Assembly: GCF_021130785.1 (NCBI RefSeq)
Contig: NC_060214.1
Location: forward strand, 49,227,001 to 49,291,000
DNA length: 64,000 nt
From: Homalodisca vitripennis
Lineage: Eukaryota; Arthropoda; Insecta; Hemiptera; Cicadellidae
Direction: 5' to 3'
The notes below the pieces were generated by a model. The model searched no databases and was not told the origin of the DNA. It worked only from the letters and a program-made list of their open reading frames with translations. The position numbers were made by a program, and so were the translations under genes. Positions 36,323 through 50,540 of this stretch are shown piece by piece. The stretch's first letter is position 1. Each line of letters opens with the position of its first letter.

Positions 36323-36943
36323 TGTGGCGTGACGACCACACGTAATTTAATTTTAAAAGTTCTCGGGTTCTAATGCGGACACGGTGATGGAATCTAGCCC
36401 AGGTTGCTGTAATAAAAATTCTCTCCTCGGTTGGCCAAATAAAACAATTTAGTTTATTGCGAAAACAATTTGAATTTTATTGCATAATTTAGAATCAGTT
36501 GAACAATTACAAATTTAGAACGGGAGAGAGAGCGAGAGAGCGATTTCACGCGAGCTTGACGCGTTCAAAACCCTGGCACGACTGCGACTCTGAACAACGA
36601 ACTCCAGGGAGCAGCGTTGTTCCAGACGCTACCTCAGCAAATTCCTGCCTGTTTACCACCCAGTAACTGCGCAGCTGCTCTGGGTATGGAAAATTACCAG
36701 GCTTACTGCTGACAGACTTGGACTTACAATTCATGTGCTGAATTAAAATATATATCTTCTCCACCTGCACTGCTTAACCTAATAAGTCTGGCTGCATATA
36801 TTCATTACTCGTTACTACAATTAAATGTTATGCTGAATAAAAATAAAATATATTACTGATGATTTAATATTTTAAATTGGCTGATTAAGACCGCATACGA
36901 TGTTACCGGTCTGGTCTTAGAACTATATGCTGGGGTCGTCACA
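36323..36943 (-). repeat. 3' LTR (left copy)
   Basis: 621 bp, starting TGTGGCG and ending GTCACA on the plus strand. The ends form a 9-bp inverted repeat (GTGACGACC at 36329-36337, GGTCGTCAC at 36934-36942). Read on the minus strand it contains two AATAAA signals (complement TTTATT near 36453 and 36476) suited to polyadenylation. It matches 47927-48551 base for base except for a 4-bp shorter GA tract near 36536-36541. Confidence 0.97.
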
Positions 36944-36956
36944 CTCCCCCCACCTT
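36944..36956 (-). promoter_or_regulatory. polypurine tract
   Basis: On the minus strand AAGGTGGGGGGAG lies directly before the 3' LTR start (TGTGACGACC). This is the normal position and composition for the plus-strand DNA primer of LTR elements. Confidence 0.85.
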
Positions 36957-39136
36957 AAAACCATACTTGTCCCCAAGTATGAGGAACCATCAGCCAGCAG
37001 CCAGAAGAAAAGTCTCTAATCTGCAGGGGAGGATCTCTGTCCTATCCTTTAGCAAGAAAATCTTAGTATATGTTCATTGATTACCATGCCAGCTGTCACT
37101 CAGTAGCCTCAACTAAATGAAATTTAAATAAACAATTGAGTTCCCTAAAAAGGCAGAAATTTCTTTTAATAAAAAAAAGTATGCAAACGCGATACGTAAT
37201 TCTTTAATTCGATCCGATCGCTCGCTCTCTTCTCAATGATTGAACACAAAAGATTTCAGGCTTACAACACATATATCATGGTATACTACGATACTAATTC
37301 AAGACCAGTCATTAACATCAGATAACCATTATCTCTAATGACCCAAATACGACTACCTAACCAGTAACACATTTAAAGCAATACGTAGTACAAGGGAACT
37401 AACCAGTGCTTCTAACTTAATCTAAAATACTTAAACATTTCAAGTTGAACTACAACACAACTACATTCTATTAATCTGGTTGAGCACTCCAGGATAACTA
37501 TGGTTTGATGGGTTTAATTTTAATGATTAAAAATATTAGTTGATAACATACCACATTTTGTAGAGCCTAATTAAATTTAAAATAATTATAAAGTGGTAGT
37601 CTTCTTTGTGAATTTTGAACGCTACTCCCCCATTTCCTGGTTAGGCCTCGTGGGTTTTCACTCGGGGGGCCGGTTTCCTCAGTCACCCCTACTATGGATT
37701 ATAATGGAGTTATCCTGAGTTAGTTCACTTGTACATCGACTATAACACAAAACCATTATAATATATACAGCCAACAAGTAGCATGTCATGAATGACATCA
37801 AACTTAACTAACAAAATAAATCGTTAAGAAACATCCTCAAGAACAGTACAAAAATTGTTAACATCTTAATTGTTCTTATTAAGCTACTAAGGCATCGACC
37901 AAACCATTACAGTACTACATTCCATAAGGGCCCTGACAAAAAGACTTAAAACTAGTGGCTCGACCCAGTTTAGTGGGTGGCCGTTACACTGTAAATGCGA
38001 GGGGGGTCTCTGGAAAAGCGGTTCAAAAACCTTTCATCTTTTAAAAAGTTTGCGTTGACGTTCTTCTGAACATCCAACAACTGGAGGACACATTCCTCAC
38101 ACTTCTCGACCTTCTTCAGTTTCATGACAGAAAACAACAACAAAAAAAAACTAAAACTAAAAGTTCCGCCCCCCACGCTTGGTTTTTAAGGGCATTGTGG
38201 ACCTGGGGCTCCCCAAGGTTTTCACCTCGCTTACCCCTGGAAACAGGGTAGCTCACCGAGACCTTCCTCCTACATTTCATTACATTCTACTGATGCCTTA
38301 GAGCTTAAAATTAACATAAGCCAAAAATGTTCATATAAAACTCACAATTCACTTAAAAGAAAACTAACAAACGAATTACAACTTTACTACTTCGGCCAGA
38401 CTGGAGACGTTACACCGCTTAGTTGGTTGCGCAAGCCAACTAGGCAGTTTGCGACAAGTTAGTCTAACAATTAATTATTGTTGAACGCATGGGTATCAAG
38501 CCAACAATGGGTTACACAGTCCAGAACTTTGGGGTAAAGGTAGGATCAGGGTTAAGGGTATGTTTGGATGGCCGGCAGGTCCTTCCTGTGCCCCATGTGG
38601 TTGTCTCACGTGTTTATTTTACTTACGTTTTGTCAATCGCTTAAAATATTAGCCAATTATCGAATAATTTGGAAAATTATATCTCCAAGTCTGCCTGATC
38701 AAAACATAAGATCAGTTACACATTCCACAACACTACAATTTAACAAATTAAAATGTTACATCTAAAAACATGGTTACATCAACAATCACCAATCTAACAT
38801 AACTACGAGTATATTCCTTAATACATCTTCCAGTGTCTCCTTTAACAACTGTCCCGTGTGCACACATCTCTCAACACAACTTGACTAGTCAACCACAATT
38901 AACACAAATCGATCATTCCGCTTACTCAAGTTCTTTGAAAGATTATTCTGTCACAGCATTAACACGAATGTCTGGAGCAATCGGTATGGAGTTTGCCAAG
39001 CAAAACTTCCTCACCATACCACAGTGAGTTGAGGGACTCACACTTATTCAGAGTGTCATTACTCACAGTTACAAAGCTTGTATCACGTCCCGCAGTCGCT
39101 CGAGATTATACAACTTCGACTGCCTCCACGTTCTGT
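36957..39136 (-). other. long 3' non-coding region of the LTR element
   Basis: About 2.2 kb between the Env stop and the polypurine tract, with no recognised domain. A minus-strand open stretch (37970-38176) has KCEECVLQLLDVQ but resembles nothing known. There are two G/C-rich patches (37630-37700 and 38160-38280) and a stem-loop candidate TAGTTGG..CCAACTA near 38420-38445. It is unusually long for a gypsy-type element and may hold regulatory sequence or a lost gene. Confidence 0.6.
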
Positions 39137-41100
39137 TCAAACATCGTTTATCTCTCCAGGGTTCACACCCTCTTGGTCTCCTTCAGGACTGTCTAGTGAC
39201 GTCAGGCCTCTCACTTTTTGCGAAGAGACCTCGGTCAGAGTGGCGGAGCGACGCTGTCGGCGACGGTTCCGGCGACTCGACCACCATGCCATCACAGGCA
39301 TAACAAATCTGTAACACATGTACACAAGCATCAGGATTGACACTAACCCAAAACTACCAGCAGCTGCCACTTTTGCAGCATAAAACCTTCGACCAAACAG
39401 AATGTGGGACTTCAGATGGCGGACTACGTCCTCCGGACGGTACTCCTTAACACCTAATGTGCCCAGCCGTTCGTTCAGTCCCTGCAGGACTTTCACAGCC
39501 GTCTCCTGCTCAGAGCTAAACAGCTCCTTCTCCTCGCTTGTGTAAATTTCTTCCACATTTGGAAACACAATTTCACTTATCTGTTCTGAGAACACAGAGC
39601 TGCCGTGAATACGGGCAGGCACCTTGAATTCTTCAGAGACAACATCACACATATCAATTCCTCTAAATTCACCGACCCCCTTCACTACCGCGGAAGTTAT
39701 ATTCAGGGTCCCGTCACTAGTTAGACAGTTCAAAGTAAATCTGTGCTCCTCTGAGGCACTGTATATCCATCGGCTTGGAGTTTTGACAAGTACCGGGGAC
39801 CTTAATCCCGATATTAATTTTCTACCACAGAGCCTCACTTGCTCGTAATGAAACATCTCAACCGCACAATTTGGTCTCTTGCTTACGCTTAACAGGACAT
39901 TCGATAACGGGCAAACAATCAGTTGTTCCCCTCGACACTCTCGGTCGAATTCCAATTGATTGTACATCGAGTACATCAACCGATCCTTACTGATCAATAA
40001 TTTTTTGGGTAGGTACCAACTTCCCACTGGGTCCATACTTTGAGAGAGGCATCATACACCGGATAGATAATAATATCATATAATTGGAACATCTTATTAT
40101 CGTTTGAAAGAGGCAACCTCATCACTACCCTTAAGGTGTGAATCGTTGTATAACTATGAACAACTACAGCAGAATAAAATTGATGAATATTTTCTAATTT
40201 AACAGGTGAATACAATTTAGTCGTTGGAGGTATAACCTTTTCAATTTCCTTCAAAATTCTTAGATACTCATGAGGTGTTAGCAAGTTACTGTCAACCTTC
40301 CCAGCTGCTAAGCTCTCAATTGCTTGATGGAATTTAGTTATCTTTTGCCTTGCACTACTTACTGTTTCTTTAGTATCCGAAAGCGCAGAGAAACTTAACT
40401 TCAAATATTCAAAAAGAGTTTTTAACTGATAATGAGCAGCATTTGCTTGTGTGAAAATTTTAACCATTTGTTCATGCATATTAGAATGATATTCTTTCAA
40501 TATAGAAATTACGTTATTTATTGTTTTTGCATGTGATACTATTTCCGCCTGCATATTTGCTAGAACAGTCACCTGCTCCTTAGCTTGATGCACTATTTTC
40601 TCGTTGGTGTTGTACAAATAATCCATTTTTCCATCAATAATTTCTAAATCGCTATTTTCAAGTGTACCAAACAGAAACTTTAACACATGACCTCCTGCAT
40701 CTACTAAACCTCGTTTTCCACGTCTTTGTGGTAACAGTTTTATTAGATCATCAATTTCATTTAGGTATTCACTAACTGACTGCTGTAATAGCACAAATTC
40801 GTAACGAAATCCGGCTTCCAATTGAATTAATGGAGAGTGTGAACTCATATTTTCATTAAGTAGATCTTCGAAAAATGTATTAAAATGATTCTTTACCTCA
40901 GTTACCAAGATACTTAGATTTCGGGATTCCTCTTCAATCTGCGTCAAGTTGTACTGCAACGTGGACTCTCCAATGGCTGTCCGTCAGCAGCACATCTCTG
41001 CCTCCTTCAAATATGACCCCTTGCTGGAAGCAGCTTACTACTCCCAGGATTAGAAAAATCAATCCTAAAAACAGAACTTCAAATTTATATCGAGTTTTAC
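39137..41100 (-). pseudogene. env: errantivirus-type Env (F-like fusion protein), broken
   Basis: Three minus-strand frames. The first (about 41090-40950) has a hydrophobic signal-peptide-like stretch. The second (40959-39994, 321 codons) has a basic furin-type cleavage site at residues 79-83 followed by a Gly-rich hydrophobic segment typical of a fusion peptide, then long helical regions. The third (40036-39137, 299 codons) has Cys-containing ectodomain sequence, one membrane helix at about residues 222-248 and a basic tail. This is the plan of insect errantivirus Env and baculovirus F proteins, which sit in the membrane and drive fusion. The frame changes near 40950 and 40010-40030 leave the gene broken. 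Confidence 0.85.
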
Positions 41101-41179
41101 CTTTACAACACGAAATACCAGTCCCATAAGCATGTCAAGCACTTCCCACTTGTCAAAGCACCACCGATATAATTCCCAA

Positions 41180-42503
41180 CTATGGCACATAGTCTTCGAG
41201 GCGTGCTGGCCTCCTTTTTACACGTGGCAACCTATTTCCCGTACGAGGTGTGCCAACACTTGGTACAGGGATACCATCATCTGCTGATGGTGTTCCCTCA
41301 CCAATACAGATATTCGAGTCTGGAATCTCGATATCGCCAACATCGTCGTCAACGTGCACTTCCGGCACCTGGTTCACCTTGGTTCTACTCACGTACGGTT
41401 TTACTCGATTTACGTGAACCACGATTTCTCTATTTCTCACTTTCAAAACTAAATTCAACGACGATAACACCTTGACTATCCTGTAGGGACCCTTCCATAG
41501 TTTTGACAGTTTCTTCACTCTGTGACGTCCGATACTCGGCACGTGCAACAGAACGTACTGGCCTTCCTCGTACAACGAATCCTTCACTTTCATGTTGTAC
41601 TGCCTTTCATACTTGGCCCTGGCCAATGCCTTACGTCGCGCAGCAACTTCATGGGTTTCCTTTAACTTCGCGCGCAGAGTCTCTACATGATCACCAAATA
41701 CCTCGTTATCTTCCGTGATAGTCAAGTCACCCTCCATAGGAGCTTCCATTTTTCGCCCAAACAACATTTCGTACGGCGAAAATCCCGTAGCCTCATGGCT
41801 TTGACTGTTATAAGCCATAGTTATATATGGGAGATATTCATCCCAATCAGTCTGATGACGGTTTCACAAAGTGACTAAGCATTTTGGCAAATAGTCGCGT
41901 GTACTCTCTCTAGCCGACCATTACTCTGTGGGTGAAAACCCTGTAGTCTGGATTTTCCTGATGTGCAAGAATTTGCACAACTGTTTGATCAGGTCAGAGG
42001 TAAAGTTTGCCCCTTGATCTGTAATCAAAGCCTTGGGAACACCAAACTTAGTAATCACTCTCTGCACTAGAGCTCGAGCCACCTGGTCTGCTGTTTGGTC
42101 AGGCAATGGTATAAATTCACAATACCGTGTGAAATGATCCATCACACTCAAGATGTACACGTTTTCTCGACTCACTGATGGGCAAGGGCCCTACTATGTC
42201 GGCTGCCACTACTTCGAAAGGAACCTTGGGCTCGTTAAACAACGTTCCAAGGGGGGCCTTTGCCTTTCCATAGTTGGTTCGTTGACTACAACTGTGGCAC
42301 GAACGCACATAGTCTAATACGTCCTTATCCATGCCCTTCCACCAGAATTTTGCCTTAATACGGTCTAACGTCTTAGCCACCGCTGCATGTCCCGTCGTTG
42401 GCAGGTCATGGTTCAACCTGATTACCTCACGAGTAAGAGATGAGGGGACCACAATCTTCTTGTCACCTCCGCTCACTCTGTACAGGATCTTTTCTGGGCT
42501 CAA
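41180..42503 (-). pseudogene. pol (IN): integrase, broken into several frames
   Basis: The frame 42503-42117 carries the zinc-binding residues His32, His39, Cys69 and Cys72 and the first catalytic Asp in ADIVGPLP (Asp102). The frame 42175-41921 carries the second catalytic Asp in ITDQGANFTS (Asp53 of that piece). The catalytic Glu lies in a third frame near 41905-41912 (RLERV). The frame 41818-41180 (212 codons) is the C-terminal part, with SPYEMLFGRKM, a chromatin/DNA-binding WKGPYRIVKVL block and NRVKPY. Integrase inserts the cDNA into host DNA. At least three frame changes separate the parts. There are two breaks near 42150 and 41920, plus one between 41820 and 41900. Confidence 0.92.
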
Positions 42504-42504
42504 C

Positions 42505-43893
42505 TTAAAAACACTTGGCCTTCCTTAACTCTTGACAATGAGGATCATTCTTTTGATGCTCACGCAGTGTGGCAAGGTCAACCACAGGGAGCTCGTCCCT
42601 GCGAGTAGCTGCGCACATAGCTCTACTGAGAGCATCAGCGTTGGTATGTCTCTTTCCCGGCTTGTGTTCCACGGTGTAAGTGAACTCAGCAAGCCTCAGC
42701 GCCCACCTCATTAGTCTACTACTTGGATCTTTCAAAGATAACATCCACTTTAGTGCTGCGTGATCTGTCACAGCCTTAAATTCACGGCCTAACAAATAAC
42801 ATCTAAAATACTTTGTAGCCCATACTAAACCTAGCAGTTCTCTTTCGGTCGTAGAATAATTCCTTTCAGCAGGAAAAAGAGTGCGAGAAGCGTACGCGAC
42901 TGGATGTTCTTCTCCATCTACTTCTTGGGACAATACAGCCCCTAGAGCGTCAATACTGGCATCAGTAGCCAAGGTGAACGGCTTACTGAAATCGGGGAAG
43001 ACCAACACTGGTGATGAGACTAGCTTCTGCTTAAGTGTCTCAAACGCAGTTTGGCACGCTTGATCCCAATCGAACTCCTTCCCTTGCTTGGTCAAGTCAA
43101 AAAGAGGTTTCCCCAATGGCAGCAAAGCCTTTCTATGAAACCGGCGGTAATATCCGGCCAAACCTAAAAAGGACCGTACATCTTTTACAGTCTTAGGTAC
43201 AGGGAATCCCTCTACAGCCTTAACCTTTCCTGGGTCGGGTTCTACACCATGGCCAGTTATTACATGACCCAGGTAGTTAACCTCGCCTACTGCAAATTTA
43301 CATTTACTGAGTTGCACGCTCAAATTAACATCACGTAGCTTACTCAACACTTCACTCAAATGCGACAAATGCGAAGCCAAATCTTTCGAGAACAAGATAA
43401 TATCGTCCAGATACACTAAACACTTTTCCCCTTTTAATCCCATAAGAACTGAATCCATCAGGCGCTGAAATGTTGCAGGCGCCGTAGACAGTCCAAAGGG
43501 CATACGTAGATACTCATAGTGACCTCCTGGCACATTAAAGGCAGTTTTCGGTCGACTTTCCTCATCTACCATAATCTGATGATAACCACTTCTCAAGTCA
43601 AGTGTAGTATACATGGTACATCCTCCCAGCGAGTCAAGTGTCTCAGCGATGTTGGGTAGAGGATATACATCAGGTACAGTCACAGCGTTGACTGCTCTAA
43701 AGTCTACGCAGAAACGATATTTCTTACTGCCATCCACAGATTTCTTCGGGACGATGACTACAGGCGACGCCCACGGGCTATGACTAGGAGTTATTATTCC
43801 CTTGTCCAGTTGGTCTTTAATCAACTCATCCACTATGGGTTTCTGATGAAATGGCCGATGTGCATTGCAGAGGCTGGGCCTCACTATGTGCAA
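42505..43893 (-). pseudogene. pol (RT-RH): reverse transcriptase and RNase H
   Basis: 462 open codons. The RT holds SPWASPVVIVPKK (39-51), FCVDFRAVN (61-69), motif A TTLDL (Asp99), MPFGLSTAPATFQRLM (131-146), YLDD (161-164) and SFLGLAGYYRRF (241-252). RNase H follows with TDASIDALGAVL (Asp311), YASRTL, Glu350/352 region, VTDHAALKW (Asp377) and NADALSR (Asp420). All catalytic residues are present. At the front, the segment linking the previous frame to PFHQKPIVDELI is missing residues usual in gypsy elements, with a frame change near 43855-43865. The end reads into a stop at a T-run (42505) where the integrase frame begins. Confidence 0.93.
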
Positions 43894-45340
43894 ACACGTC
43901 CCTGTATTCCTCTAGTACTCTTTTAACCTCTTGTCGCTCGGGTAGTCTCAAATGGCTAAGTTTTTCATCTACACATTTATCAAACAATTCGTATTCTTTG
44001 ATAGCTAGTCCTACTCGCTTCGTTGTCACATCTACATCATCCAAGATGGTCTTCCGCATCAACTCTGCGAGTTTCAGCTTTCCCTCTTCATTGAGGTGTA
44101 GCCCATGCTTGGTATACAAGCGCCTAGCAAACCTTCCTCGCATCTCACAGAAGGACATCCTTCCCCGTCCCTCCGAATTGGTTCTTTTTACGAAGGACCT
44201 AAGTAGATCATTCGCTCTCTTCAGATCTCCTATTACATTCTTGTCGAACCTATCAGGAATTCCCATAACTACAATGCGAGCATCCCACTTATTAGGTATT
44301 GCTTGAAGGGCTTGTTGTAGGGTGCGCGAGTAAGGAGCACCTCTATCCACGTCATTAGTTCCTGCCATCACCAGTACCGTATCACCCTGAGTCAGCTGTG
44401 CAATCTCTCTTTTAAGATTACCCATCGCATCTTTAAGCTTACCATTAGGTACAAACCACGAACTGAGCTCAAAGTTCCCTGGCAACCTCTCTTCCAATAA
44501 CTGCTGAATTCCGCGACCGTGACTATCCGCTATCAAGACTATCTTACGTTTGACCTTATCTATCGTATCGTTACTAACTGATTCCACTATTCCAAATTTA
44601 GAATTTACCGTAAGGGATACTTCTTCTCCACTTACATTCACAGCCTTCGCCCAACATTTATTGTTCACTATTTTAGTTAATACTCGTGCCAAATACACGC
44701 CCTGTATGGTAAGACCCACTGGTTCGACCACTACATCCGAACCCTCCAGATTATCATTAGTCGTAGATCCAAATTTGCTTAACTTCAACTGAACCAGTTT
44801 CTCACTCCGCGCGGGTATTGTGACATCTTTTGCGTTATACACGTAATTCTCTATACAACTGTCCTGGCGTTTAGCCACTCGGACAACCTCAGGTGTCGTA
44901 GTAGGGGCCTGTGCCTTTTTGTGGCGCGGCGCAACTACTTGCCTACCTGAATCGGGGACACTCTCACCCCTGTGCAACCGATTTAACCAAATGTCATTTC
45001 CAGACATACGGAGAACACCTTCCGTGATGTCTATCGATGCACTTCCCTCTTTCAGAATATCACAACCTAACACGGCTAAATACCCACGGGGTAGGTTACT
45101 CACAACAAAGTTCCCTTTCACCGGCACACCCGGCTTTAACATCAAAGTCACTTTTTGTCTGCCGTAAATCTTCAGAGTTCGTCCTGAAATTCCCCGGATA
45201 ATCAAGTCAGGCTTTGTCATCGGAGCTACAGCGGCTCCACGTTTGATGAGCGACACCTGAGCACCGGTATCAATTAATATCTTTCCCTCGGCATTATCCA
45301 CACGCCCCATGGCAACTAGTTCCTCGGCTAAATCTTTCAC
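43826..45340 (-). CDS. pol (PR): pol N-terminal part: aspartic protease plus SGNH-like domain
   Basis: 504 open codons. Residues ~15-115 are a retropepsin-type aspartic protease with ILIDTGAQVSLI (catalytic Asp24) and a VLGCDIL flap/C-terminal block (90-96). A linker follows. Residues ~264-433 (about 44042-44551) look like an SGNH/GDSL hydrolase: block I IADSHGRG (Ser273), block III GTNDV (327-331) and block V KHGLHLNEEG (His415). The usual block V Asp is His412, so one member of the triad is altered. Residues 455-495 (LRLPERQEVKRVLEEYRD) are the normal lead-in to RT. The protease processes the polyprotein; a role for the SGNH-like part is unknown. The frame ends at a break before RT. Confidence 0.88.
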   Translation of the reverse strand: MKDLAEELVAMGRVDNAEGKILIDTGAQVSLIKRGAAVAPMTKPDLIIRGISGRTLKIYGRQKVTLMLKPGVPVKGNFVVSNLPRGYLAVLGCDILKEGSASIDITEGVLRMSGNDIWLNRLHRGESVPDSGRQVVAPRHKKAQAPTTTPEVVRVAKRQDSCIENYVYNAKDVTIPARSEKLVQLKLSKFGSTTNDNLEGSDVVVEPVGLTIQGVYLARVLTKIVNNKCWAKAVNVSGEEVSLTVNSKFGIVESVSNDTIDKVKRKIVLIADSHGRGIQQLLEERLPGNFELSSWFVPNGKLKDAMGNLKREIAQLTQGDTVLVMAGTNDVDRGAPYSRTLQQALQAIPNKWDARIVVMGIPDRFDKNVIGDLKRANDLLRSFVKRTNSEGRGRMSFCEMRGRFARRLYTKHGLHLNEEGKLKLAELMRKTILDDVDVTTKRVGLAIKEYELFDKCVDEKLSHLRLPERQEVKRVLEEYRDVFAHSEAQPLQCTSAISSETHSG

Positions 45341-45477
45341 AACCGGAACTATTCGTATTTCTTTATCTACTCGGGCGGTTTCACGACTCTTAACTAAGGC
45401 TCCTACTCTAGGTTCACAAGTGTTCTTTCCAGTCGTTACATTTCTTTTCGTCGCCTTGGCCTGCGGTTGTGGCTCAT

Positions 45478-46451
45478 TTACTCTCGGGGACGGGTGGCGG
45501 CGACTCCACTGGCCCCTGCCCCGTTTCCCGACTGACTAGCACTAGGAGTGCTGGTTGGAAGTTTTACGCGACAATCCTTTTGTCTGTGCCCTGGCTTATT
45601 ACATCGCCAGCACCTCGAGTCATTACTGGGTCTACTAAATCCCCTATTGTCCCGACACTCACGAGACGTGTGCCCCGGATTATGGCACCGATAACAAACA
45701 AGGTCAGTTTGAAAAACCTTCCGTTCATCTGTAGCGCGAGACGGATCTTTCGATTGCTTCAAAATGTGATCAATTGCCACCGCTGTAGTGACGGCTTCTC
45801 GGATGTTAGTAGGGAATTTTAGTCTCGTCTGATCACCAACGTGTCCAATAAGACCTCGGGTAAAAGCATCCAAAGCTCTACGATCGGCTTCTTCCCTTAG
45901 TGCAGCATTAACTTCTGGATTTGCAGTGACTCGCACTGTCTTTTCATTTAATGTCCGCACTCGATCAGCAAAAGCTTCAATCGTTTCACCCCTCCGTTGC
46001 TGTATTACAGACAACTGCTGGAAGTAACAATCTTTCGGAGCTTTGTCACTAAACCGTTGTGTCAAAACTTCTTTAAATCCCGCATAAGTACTCAACCGGC
46101 CTTGATCCTCCGATCGAATAAAACTCAAGGCGGTTCCAGCCAATCTCAATTTAGCAACCCTTAATTTTTCGTCGTTTCCCAATGACTTAATTCACCGACA
46201 TTGTCGATACTTTCAAAGAAGTGGAGAACAGCCTCCGGCTTTCCTCCATCAAAGGGAGTGATCGAGCCTACCATGTCGAACGTAGGTCGTTCTGTATGAC
46301 CTCGCAAAGTTTCCTCCAACATGGTGTTCAGGTGGTCACTTCGATCCAACCTAGCATGACCAAGAGTCTCCAACCGTTCAGTTACCGCATCAATGGCTTC
46401 CTGGAGGTCCATTTCTTGCCCTCCAATACTAACGCGACCAGCCATTGTCAA
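45478..46451 (-). pseudogene. gag: Gag with two CCHC zinc knuckles, one frame break
   Basis: The first frame (46451-46161, 96 codons) starts with MTMAGRVS and contains MVGSITPFDGGKPEAVLHFF, the entry to the capsid-like region. The second frame (46182-45478, 234 codons) continues with KLRLAGTALSFI, FKEVLTQRF, RRGETIEAFADRVRTL and AFTRGLIG, the capsid-like region of gypsy Gag. It ends with two zinc knuckles, CYRCHNPGHTSREC and CWRCNKPGHRQKDC, that bind RNA, then a Ser/Gly-rich tail. The frames overlap by about 20 bp at a short A/G run near 46170. Gag forms the particle that packages the element RNA. The 45341-45477 stretch links it to the protease frame. Confidence 0.92.
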
Positions 46452-47906
46452 TCAGTTCAGGCACACTTACTTTCAAAAAGTGGACAAGTCCCAACTTAGT
46501 TTTCCAAAAATAATTTTAAAAGATTTTTCTCAATTAAATTTTCAATTAAATAATTATGTGCTCTCTCCCGTTTGTGAAAAGTAATTAAAATCAAGAAATA
46601 ATTTTAATTTATCGACTTGCAATCAATCAATCAACTTTCAATTCAGCTCTAATCAATCCACTTTTTGTCTAAGTCCTGAACACTAATCAAATACGAAGTT
46701 ACACCACGATTTATTCTAAGTCAAGACAACCTACTATGTCTGAGCAAAGAATAATTCCAATATTTCAATATTTACTTTTCCTTCAAATTACCCAAAAAAT
46801 ATTTAAAATACCTTTTTACCTATCACTCAATTCATCATACAATTCATCACGAATGTCGAAACCTATTCCACAAAATTTAATCTTCTTTCTTCGTGCCTGT
46901 AAATAAACTTAGCAAACTAACTCAATCAGGGTTTGCTGGTTCCACCACGGACGAGAGGAAGAATTTAAACCATAATAAAAAATCAAAAGTCAAAACTTTA
47001 AAGTTAATCAAAAGTTTAAAGTTTAATTACAATTTAACTATCATCAGATGAACAAGTTCCCAAAGTTTCAACAAAATATAACCAAGTCCAACGTTAATTC
47101 TTCAAAAATATTTAAATTTATAATTTATTTCACTTCCCTTTAATGACTACTACCCCTTATCTTCCTTCTCTCACAACGTGGTTAGCCTCCTGCCCTGTAC
47201 CGGTACCTTTGAGTTAGCCTAACCAAGTCAGAAAGGTTAGGTTATCAACTAATTTGTATAATTAAGTTAGTTTTAGAAGCAGTTAATTTAGGTTAATCAG
47301 GTTTTAACTACCAGTTAAATCAGTACATTAAAACCTTAGAGTGTACGTTTATTTTTGATCAATATCAGGTATAAGAATTGAACTACTGAGGGACTAGTCC
47401 AATCAAAACAAAGTACTACCGAATAACTACTCAATTATTCACAACTACCGAAATAACGATTGTCGAGATTCAAGTAATCGACAACCGAATGCCTAACAAA
47501 GAATATAACTAGTTAGTAATGTCGAATGGAATTGTGGGAGCTTACAACAAGTATGGCGGACTATTAGCGTCTATTGTTCTCAGCCAATATGGCGTCTCTA
47601 TTACAAGTATTACTTTAAAATTCAATAAAAATTATAAAAATCAATCAAAAAAAGTTTTCAATTAGTTTTAAATTTAAAACATTAAATTACCTTTGACTTA
47701 GTCACCTCGTGATTTCAACAATTTCAAATATTACGTTTTATAAACAGTTTCTAGGCTAGCATTATTCTACGGGCAGAATAAAAATTACTTACCCATCATC
47801 CTTGTCCCGGCTTCTTGCACCAACTTTTCGATTTCTTCAACGAAACAAAGAAACACTAATTTATTTTTAGAAAGACGAACCGACCGACAGAACCAACTGA
47901 CACAAC
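46452..47906 (-). other. leader (5' untranslated) region of the LTR element
   Basis: About 1.45 kb between the PBS and the gag start with no coding signal on the minus strand. It is AT-rich with many short Phe/Lys-type open stretches only. It would hold packaging and possibly insulator or promoter elements, but none is recognisable by eye. Confidence 0.6.
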
Positions 47907-47922
47907 CCCACACCTGACACCA
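47907..47922 (-). promoter_or_regulatory. primer binding site, tRNA-Leu-like
   Basis: On the minus strand, 4 bases after the 5' LTR, the sequence reads TGGTGTCAGGTGTGGG. It is complementary, with one mismatch, to the 3' end typical of metazoan tRNA-Leu (CCCACTCCTGACACCA). Distance and orientation are right for minus-strand priming. Confidence 0.75.
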
Positions 47923-47926
47923 AATA

Positions 47927-48551
47927 TGTGGCGTGACGACCACACGTAATTTAATTTTAAAAGTTCTCGGGTTCTAATGCGGACACGGTGATGGAATCTA
48001 GCCCAGGTTGCTGTAATAAAAATTCTCTCCTCGGTTGGCCAAATAAAACAATTTAGTTTATTGCGAAAACAATTTGAATTTTATTGCATAATTTAGAATC
48101 AGTTGAACAATTACAAATTTAGAACGGGAGAGAGAGCGAGAGAGAGAGCGATTTCACGCGAGCTTGACGCGTTCAAAACCCTGGCACGACTGCGACTCTG
48201 AACAACGAACTCCAGGGAGCAGCGTTGTTCCAGACGCTACCTCAGCAAATTCCTGCCTGTTTACCACCCAGTAACTGCGCAGCTGCTCTGGGTATGGAAA
48301 ATTACCAGGCTTACTGCTGACAGACTTGGACTTACAATTCATGTGCTGAATTAAAATATATATCTTCTCCACCTGCACTGCTTAACCTAATAAGTCTGGC
48401 TGCATATATTCATTACTCGTTACTACAATTAAATGTTATGCTGAATAAAAATAAAATATATTACTGATGATTTAATATTTTAAATTGGCTGATTAAGACC
48501 GCATACGATGTTACCGGTCTGGTCTTAGAACTATATGCTGGGGTCGTCACA
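47927..48551 (-). repeat. 5' LTR (right copy)
   Basis: 625 bp, TGTGGCG..GTCACA on the plus strand. It matches the left LTR throughout by eye, except for 4 extra bases in the GAGAGAGCGAGAGAG tract near 48140. As the upstream LTR it should carry the promoter. On the minus strand a GTTCAGAGTCGCAGTC segment near 48190-48210 resembles the initiator-type starts of gypsy elements, but this is only a guess. Confidence 0.97.
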
Positions 48552-48736: not shown

Positions 48737-49014
48737 ACTCGTCTACTAACCACCTACGACTGACCAGAGGGACTAGCCAATGGTAATCGTGACGGCTGGC
48801 TAAAACAAGATGGCGGAAATACAAGGAAGGGGAACAAGAATGGGCCCTTTCATTATTATTGGTTCATGCGAGATGACTCGTCTACTAACCACCTACGACT
48901 GACCAGAGGGACTAGCCAATGGTAATCGTGACGGCTGGCTAAAACAAGATGGCGGAAATACAAGGAAGGGGAACAAGAATCGGCCCTTTCATTATTATTG
49001 GTTCATGCGAGATG
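48737..49014. repeat. two-unit tandem duplication, 139 bp
   Basis: Units 48737-48875 and 48876-49014 begin ACTCGTCTACTAACC and end CATGCGAGATG. They differ at one base seen by eye (GAATGGGCCC versus GAATCGGCCC). The second unit overlaps the last codons and stop of the Penelope endonuclease frame. Confidence 0.95.
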
Positions 49015-49858
49015 AACTTCTTAAAACCATATTGTGACTCCGCATTGGTTTATTACAAATGTCTGATCCGTTTGATACTTTTGATTTTCTCTTTAGTTCA
49101 TTTTTTAGAATTGGCAACCAAAGCGGCCTAATCTCGACTGATGGTTGACTGATTGGTTGGTCTGCCAATTTAATGTAAGTTGCCTCAATTAGTTTCCTTT
49201 TGAAGAAATGTGGTTCCCGATGTATTATGTGGTCTTCATCCCAATTCATATGATGGTCTTCGGACCAACAATGGTGTGCAATTTTTGACTTTTCTGTGAG
49301 ACCCTTTCTCGTGTTTTCTTTGTGTTCTTTTATCCTTAAGTTTAGTGGTCTTTTTGTCTCGCCTATGTATTCCCTATTGCAGCTACATTTCATACTGTAA
49401 ACACAGTTTTTGGAATCCTGTGTGCCATTTTTTGGTTTTGTTTTTACGAGACTTTGTCTAAGAGTGTTGTGTGTTTTAAACGCGGTTCTAATGTTGTACT
49501 TTCTACCTACTCTTCTAATTTTCTCCGATAATCCCGGCACATAAGGGATTGACATAAACGCAAATTTATCGCAATTCTGTTTTTCTGACTCAGGAATGAT
49601 TCTTCTGGTTCGTTTGCACTTATTAATTACTAATTGAGGGTATCCATTGCTTCTGAGATCCGATTCAATTTTCTTAAATTCTTCTTTTAGTCCATCTTTA
49701 TCTGAGCACAAGCTCTTTGCTCTATCAAACAACGAGTAGGCTACTCCTTCTTTGACAGATTTTTGATGGTTGGATTGATAATTTAAATATTTTCCTGTGT
49801 GTGTTATCTTTCGAAAAACAGTTGTCTTATGGACATCTCTATCTCTTAATACACACAC
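48995..49858 (-). pseudogene. Penelope-like GIY-YIG endonuclease region
   Basis: About 287 open codons. The front continues the RT thumb/linker (VFRKITHTGKYLNYQSNHQ at 14-32, RSNGYPQLV at 69-77). The nuclease begins at CVYSMKCSCNREYIGETKR (152-170), the GIY-YIG core with Cys residues usual in these elements. It continues with LRIKEHKEN (Arg175, catalytic) and LIEATYIK (Glu225, metal-binding). The nuclease nicks target DNA for integration. The nuclease region itself is intact. It lost its join to RT by a frame change in a GT/CA microsatellite at 49851-49860. Confidence 0.9.
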
Positions 49859-50540
49859 ACATCCAAAAAGGGAAGCTCGTTTTGGACTTCCACTTCCATT
49901 TTGAGGTGGACGGAAGGAGAAATACTATTAATGTGATTCAAAACATTATTTAATTCAATGTCTCCATGAGAAAAAATAACAAAGGTATCATCCACATACC
50001 TCCACCAAATCTTTGTTTTGAACTGAGCTGAAGCCAAAGCTTTTCGCTCGAATTCCTCCATAAAGATATTGGCGAAAATATGAGACAGCGGAGAACCCAT
50101 TGCCATCCCCTCATCTTGACGGTAAATTTTACCCTCTAACTCAAAATAATTGCATTGAGTGCATAGTTCTAACAGTTCCATAATTACTGGCACGGGAGGT
50201 TTAGTTCTATCCTTTAATGTTTGGTCTTTTTTGAGACGTAATTTAATAATTCCGAGAGTTTCTGGAACTGGTACATTTGTAAATAGACTTTCGACATCAA
50301 AACTTACCAGTTTGTCAGTTTCAGTCAACTTTAGGGATTTTGACTTCTCTACGAAATCCCTGGAAATTTTGATGAAAGAGTCAGTTTTTCCTACCAATGG
50401 CGTTTAAGATGTCCAAGAGGACTTTAGACAATTCCCTGCAAGGTGAATCACGAGAACTAATGATGGGCCGGAGAGGGATGGTAGGTTTGTGGATTTTGGT
50501 AGGGCCATACATATCAGGTAATCCTAAAGGTTTTCAAAGA
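49846..50540 (-). pseudogene. Penelope-like reverse transcriptase, N-terminus missing
   Basis: A fragment in another frame at 50540-50400 reads MYGPTKIHKPTIPLRPIISS, an RT block typical of Penelope-like elements. The main frame (50397-49846, 183 codons) has motif A SFDVESLFTNVP (Asp34), GMAMGSPLS (97-105), RYVDDTFVIF (YVDD at 134-137) and ELPFLDV. Catalytic residues are intact. A frame change near 50398 and another in the GT tract near 49855 break it. No RT sequence is visible past about 50540. Confidence 0.9.

Follow-up and report, generated by a model that had tools for sequence, protein, structure and literature searches.

How did a domain of the SGNH/GDSL hydrolase type come to lie between the protease and the reverse transcriptase (RT) of a Ty3/gypsy retroelement, and does the element keep it or merely carry it? 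The question is raised by a 64,000-nucleotide stretch of the Homalodisca vitripennis genome (NC_060214.1, positions 49,227,001 to 49,291,000; hereafter the window), in whose element a first-pass annotation, made from the letters alone, had noticed the signature of an SGNH fold within the pol frame. Our comparisons of sequence establish a single gain of the domain, its place between protease and RT, and its upkeep. The element is made of known modules in a new, evolutionarily stable arrangement.

A search of the H. vitripennis genome (2.3 Gb) with the window's domain returned 150 scored matches among 3,030 candidates, a lower bound on its occurrence. Matching proteins that carry the name of this species are 98%, 42% and 40% identical. 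Frame breaks are frequent among the genomic copies; uninterrupted frames of 1,469 codons enclose 12 of the 150 scored matches and frames of 1,470-1,473 codons four more, and a search with a diverged group placed nine of 150 scored matches in frames of 1,455 codons. Because the whole pol frame is open in these other copies, the intact frame through the domain in the window copy, first read as a hint of importance or as luck, is not by itself evidence of the former. We searched separately for the gag zinc knuckle, protease, linker, SGNH domain, pre-RT stretch, RT, RNase H, H2C2 and integrase pieces in 20 fetched stretches and the 20 first loci, with a result for 24 of the 40. The order of the detected pieces is identical in all 24 loci, which include groups A (with the window element), B (L021-L023), C (L024, L025, L028, L033 and L034), D (L026, L027 and L029) and E (L030-L032 and L035). 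Some pieces are absent, through the end of the stretch or decay: L031 is without gag, L034 without the pre-RT piece and L036 without anything after RT. Compared with the window, groups B-E show identities of 45-49% for the SGNH domain and 74-77% for RT; L034 is an exception, with an RT in two pieces of 71-73% identity. Groups C and D share 87-89% identity in the SGNH domain.

The arrangement extends beyond these copies. Searching with the SGNH part of group B, we found five more Pol proteins of 1,043-1,410 residues on other contigs, at 55-58% identity. RT and RNase H are labelled in all five and the integrase core in four (the sequence of P0015 ends early), and Pfam recognised a retropepsin in both of the two scanned, P0012 and P0015. 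P0012, the one protein checked in this respect, comes from another source, because nothing in the H. vitripennis genome matches its domain at more than 58% identity. A search with the RT part of P0012 passed 4,183 RT-bearing proteins, and among the best 120 of these a profile scan found the SGNH domain in seven (P0012-P0016, P0021 and P0023). The order protease-SGNH-RT, which the first-pass annotation had proposed to look for in related elements, is therefore found in five genomic groups and seven contig Pols.

An RT tree was built from 60 of 125 candidate rows, the SGNH-bearing rows being taken first and the rest by RT score. All 14 SGNH-bearing rows, three of which are near-copies of group A, form one clade (100/99) among SGNH-less gypsy elements, and no SGNH-less row falls inside it, although rows picked from hits could miss a loss. 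The nearest RT relatives of the clade, P0037, P0038 and P0043, are gypsy Pols with a protease, a similar linker and RT, RNase H and integrase, but have no SGNH domain by profile; on reading, P0037 and P0038 show a shorter charged spacer at its position. The distance from the protease DTG motif to RT is 508-533 residues in the seven SGNH-bearing contig Pols, against a median of 324 residues in 64 measurable proteins of 113 without the domain (two of the 64 values are negative and the maximum is 708; the other 49 proteins have no recognised DTG). A tree of the SGNH domain itself comprised 34 rows, 14 gypsy and 20 other, with five of the ten loci L043-L052 included, P0001 excluded as a duplicate and P0002 and P0004 as truncated. 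All 14 gypsy rows lie on one side of a single branch (100/99), separate from the 20 others. The linker between protease and SGNH domain is a conserved module that resembles a stretch in SGNH-less gypsy Pols; it had no Pfam match up to E 10 and evolves at a rate (dN/dS) close to that of the SGNH domain.

We estimated selection on the domain, a check that had been suggested from the outset, from groups C and D only, using four of the five C loci (L033 omitted) and the three D loci; pairs of more distant groups did not enter the estimate, their synonymous sites being saturated. Between C and D, dS is 0.35-0.45 and synonymous sites are unsaturated. All 12 C-D pairs point to purifying selection on the SGNH domain: dN/dS is 0.156-0.218 and its upper 95% limits lie at 0.263-0.379, whereas shifted-frame controls on the same codons gave 0.61-0.71 and 2.6-4.5. 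This claim draws on dN/dS between groups and not on the open frame of one copy, and on it the SGNH domain is judged to be maintained by purifying selection as a shared feature of the element group.

By fold comparison (VIA) the domain has the SGNH alpha/beta fold, which together with the residues of blocks I, III and V bears out the signature first noticed in the pol frame. A single-frame sequence search of solved structures gave no match up to E 1; a 12-row profile gave 11, the top one a designed scaffold (E 0.005) whose matched stretch reads as SGNH-like. Scans of viral contigs found no relatives of the domain. We aligned 28 rows for the active site, 15 from gypsy elements and 13 from non-gypsy relatives, the latter merely 25-31% identical to the window's domain. 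Ser14 (block I), Asn70 (block III) and His156 (block V), whose columns we take to be the SGNH motif residues, are unchanged in all 28. Position 41, assigned by eye to the block II oxyanion, separates the 15 gypsy rows, all with Gly, from the 13 others, all with Ala, and an R-x-D motif (Arg105, Asp107) is conserved in 27 of 28. The first-pass annotation had read the usual Asp of block V as a His and supposed a binding module. The replacement is real and is not decay: 26 of 28 rows have His, none has Asp and the other catalytic residues are invariant. The supposition drawn from it is weakened by the invariant Ser, Asn and catalytic His. An active enzyme of the Ser-His type is no less likely than a module that only binds, and would be our best guess, possibly with another acid in the place of Asp.

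The suspected kinship with esterases of long interspersed nuclear elements (LINEs) holds, as the non-gypsy relatives include LINE proteins encoded by the first open reading frame (ORF1). P0018 combines the SGNH-type domain with a PHD finger (E 2e-5) and a coiled-coil-like stretch (by eye), and P0017 is alike with a weak PHD match (E 0.066); a PHD finger with a coiled coil is a make-up familiar from CR1-type ORF1s. With P0006, a further relative, as query, the genome yielded 150 scored matches among 3,669 candidates. An endonuclease-type stretch lies downstream of the SGNH stretch in seven of eight loci examined, and all seven tested pieces match Exo_endo_phos or an endonuclease-reverse-transcriptase family. 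The match of L060 stays under the cut-off and the other six exceed it; the loci L061 and L064 belong to one family, of which they are near-copies. L043 has no long ORF2 in the examined stretch, and we do not class it as proven to be a LINE. Because an endonuclease-type ORF2 follows SGNH ORFs in this genome, LINE ORF1s are a plausible source pool, and we infer that a LINE was the donor of the gypsy domain. The LINE esterase of ZfL2-1 (PDB 4c1b) has the triad D279, H282 and S143, together with N195 and G165. Its hydrolysis of p-nitrophenyl acetate is weak and is abolished by a change of Ser or His, and the enzyme binds acidic liposomes but not oligo-A RNA (PMC3905857). Its His191, four residues before the Asn, is described as transposon-specific (PMC3905857).

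We lean towards an explanation in which an env-bearing Ty3/gypsy lineage gained the SGNH domain once and kept it in Pol, where it would weakly hydrolyse acyl esters in a role connected with membranes or lipids. The domain was most likely acquired from the LINE ORF1 pool and has been retained in frame between the post-protease linker and RT. From its place, its production would follow Pol levels, and it would reach the particle as part of the Gag-Pol precursor. It might hold particles at acidic membranes during assembly or entry, or else act early in the following cycle on ester substrates, lipids among them. Weak acyl-ester hydrolysis is the most likely activity given the retained Ser, Asn and His, the purifying selection, and the activity and liposome binding of ZfL2-1. 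The missing block V Asp could mean that Ser and His act as a dyad or that another acid stands in, speculatively Asp107 of the R-x-D motif. Because an Env-like gene is also present, the domain is unlikely to be a substitute for env. We regard as unlikely the more specific picture of a particle-borne lipid esterase of LINE origin, with an unusual Ser-His pair and substitute acid, that acts in membrane passage or uncoating and is perhaps the first of its kind inside a retrovirus-like Pol.

Several observations weigh against this explanation. The triad Asp, three residues before the His in the DxxH of block V, is present in none of the 28 rows (26 His, one Asn, one Phe), and neither is a His of the ZfL2-1 His191 type four residues before the oxyanion Asn (14 Ile, seven Leu, six Met, one Val). 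The window's domain scores 29.6 bits against PF13472, under the curated cut-off of 32.9, and its relatives score lower still, with weak or no matches to the Pfam GDSL models. The domain also evolves faster than RT: in comparisons of L024 with L026, L027 and L029, dN/dS is 0.16-0.18 in SGNH and 0.021-0.033 in RT, with 0.056-0.075 in the protease and 0.20-0.23 in the linker. Recent copies look weakly constrained in the domain (dN/dS 0.72 for the window against L039 and 0.36 for L026 against L029, each based on few changes), which decaying copies would be expected to show. Finally, the direction from LINE to gypsy is not proven, because the SGNH tree lacks a root and has weak deep forks and several rows on long branches.

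The absent Asp and the faster evolution relative to RT would suit a domain that has lost catalysis and serves in Pol as a binding or structural module, like the SGNH-like domain of Oskar; Oskar and the insect PAF-AH homologues are precedents of SGNH proteins whose activity has been lost (PMC3905857). The invariance of Ser, Asn and His across all 28 rows, despite the low identity of the 13 non-gypsy relatives, would be unexpected of a pure binder, and we hold this alternative to be possible but the weaker one. It is improbable that the domain is a passive passenger that entered once and is tolerated without being needed. The weak constraint between the window and L039 and the existence of sister elements that manage without the domain agree with such a passenger, but the gap between the C-D dN/dS and the shifted-frame controls does not, nor does the want of SGNH-less rows within the RT clade, subject to the same caveat on row choice. 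That foreign sequence was inserted at this locus alone, or that the assembly is chimeric there, a view to which only the broken frames of the window copy point, is hardly credible and is excluded as a candidate by the 150 scored genome matches, the five groups of the same order and the seven Pols from other contigs.

An ester hydrolase kept inside Pol, as we favour, has partial parallels among known retroelements. The Vesta LTR (long terminal repeat) elements of bdelloid rotifers have likewise captured a GDSL/SGNH esterase, a type that other retroelement classes also contain, and have a dUTPase between protease and RT (PMC5408684); the rotifer ORF3 case is repeated in PMC5718144. In Vesta the esterase is a separate ORF3 after pol and most members have no bona fide env (PMC5408684), whereas in the window element it lies inside pol, in the slot between protease and RT, and an Env-like gene is present. 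Gypsy-like elements with dUTPase in rotifers and basidiomycetes, and planarian Burro with a dUTPase-like motif, also hold an extra enzyme domain between protease and RT (PMC5408684, PMC6431247), but the dUTPase fold differs from SGNH and the linker here is without any Pfam match. The esterases of LINE ORF1s (CR1, L2, RTEX) are equally transposon-borne SGNH domains (PMC3905857), though situated in ORF1 upstream of an ORF2 with APE and RT; among the elements studied in PMC4120745 esterase ORF1s are confined to vertebrate subgroups. ZfL2-1 keeps the Asp-His-Ser triad and His191 (PMC3905857), both absent from our aligned rows, and the domain is for this reason assigned to a related but distinct SGNH subfamily, which is without the triad Asp and keeps the other catalytic residues. 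We found no report of an SGNH/GDSL domain between the protease and RT of a gypsy element in the literature covered, with Repbase notes and most subscription papers outside the search. The checked text of PMC9025612 and PMC6825717 has no bearing on such a placement; neither has that of PMC11939994, on a plant gene, or of PMC7599744, where the term occurs solely in reference to a Helitron-mobilised SGNH gene in platyfish. Carriage inside Pol is a further mode in which retroelements hold SGNH esterases, besides LINE ORF1 and rotifer ORF3, with a single gain and later upkeep under selection, and it suggests that LINEs and LTR elements have exchanged domains. Because the place in Pol implies packaging in the particle, the older guess that these esterases act on membranes becomes testable in elements with a particle stage.

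Some relatives met in these searches have unusual compositions. L059, L060 and P0008 share a conserved stretch beyond SGNH (~SAGVAV...RK.FG) that looks Macro-like by eye; Pfam on L060 gave a GDSL match alone and no Macro match. P0008 joins PWWP, a C48 peptidase and SGNH (Pfam, profile), and P0007 a C48 peptidase (by label) and SGNH (profile). The gypsy Pol P0073 has a Macro domain downstream of integrase (residues 1064-1161; PF01661, E 1.7e-7), and P0081, which lies closest to it in the RT tree, ends in a tail of similar look and no Pfam match.

Features of the window copy, in the order of the element's own strand
Feature	Position in window	Strand	Details
Whole LTR element	36323..48551	-	12,229 bp; 4-bp direct repeat TAAT on both sides; LTR alignment and flanks
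5' LTR	47927..48551	-	625 bp; aligned to the other LTR
gag, first open piece	46164..46451	-	open frame; gag by position only
gag, second open piece	45481..46191	-	Retrotrans_gag and two CCHC zinc knuckles
Frame with retropepsin, linker, SGNH domain and RT lead-in	43829..45535	-	569 codons, open
Retropepsin (RVP)	45038..45295	-	frame residues 81-166, DTG motif; Pfam RVP E 3.7e-4
Linker module between protease and SGNH	44564..44938	-	similar stretch in SGNH-less gypsy Pols (P0037, P0038, P0042, by reading)
SGNH/GDSL hydrolase domain	44045..44563	-	frame residues 325-497; sequence and fold comparison
RT and RNase H	42508..43911	-	RVT_1 E 7.6e-39, RT_RNaseH E 9.9e-39 (Pfam)
Integrase zinc-binding piece	42120..42524	-	Integrase_H2C2 E 8.5e-22 (Pfam)
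Integrase core piece	41924..42190	-	rve E 2.8e-12 (Pfam)
Integrase C-terminal piece	41183..41863	-	Integrase_p58_C E 2.2e-4, under cut-off (Pfam)
Env-like piece 1	39997..40983	-	Baculo_F E 4.6e-11 (Pfam)
Env-like piece 2	39140..40051	-	Baculo_F E 6.1e-5, under cut-off (Pfam)
3' LTR	36323..36943	-	621 bp; LTR alignment

The window element is a Ty3/gypsy LTR retroelement by its LTRs, 4-bp target duplication, gag and the order protease-RT-RNase H-integrase, and an env-bearing one by the Baculo_F/gypsy-type Env downstream of pol. The earlier label 'errantivirus-like' stands only in the sense of a Ty3/gypsy element with a Baculo_F-type Env; the RT tree included no named errantivirus. Retropepsin, SGNH domain and RT lead-in do share one open frame, as first described, and open frames and Pfam pieces confirmed that gag, the RT entry, integrase and Env are all broken, RT and RNase H being in a different frame from the SGNH domain. 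The first gag piece had a best Pfam match of merely E 0.11; in the second, zf-CCHC matches two stretches (E 3.5e-9) and Retrotrans_gag falls slightly below its cut-off (E 6.6e-5; 23.5 bits against 24.1).

The two LTRs are the same at 621 of 621 aligned bases, and because they differ by one 4-bp indel alone, a recent insertion is suggested. Yet the reading frame is broken within each of gag, pol, integrase and env, for which indels in the assembly or mobilisation in trans offer a possible explanation. Adjoining the element, at 48995-50403 on the minus strand, lie two frames that by eye are Penelope-like, one RT-like (MAMGSPLS, YVDDTF) and one GIY-YIG-like. A 139-bp unit occurs at 48737-49014 in two head-to-tail copies that are 99% identical.
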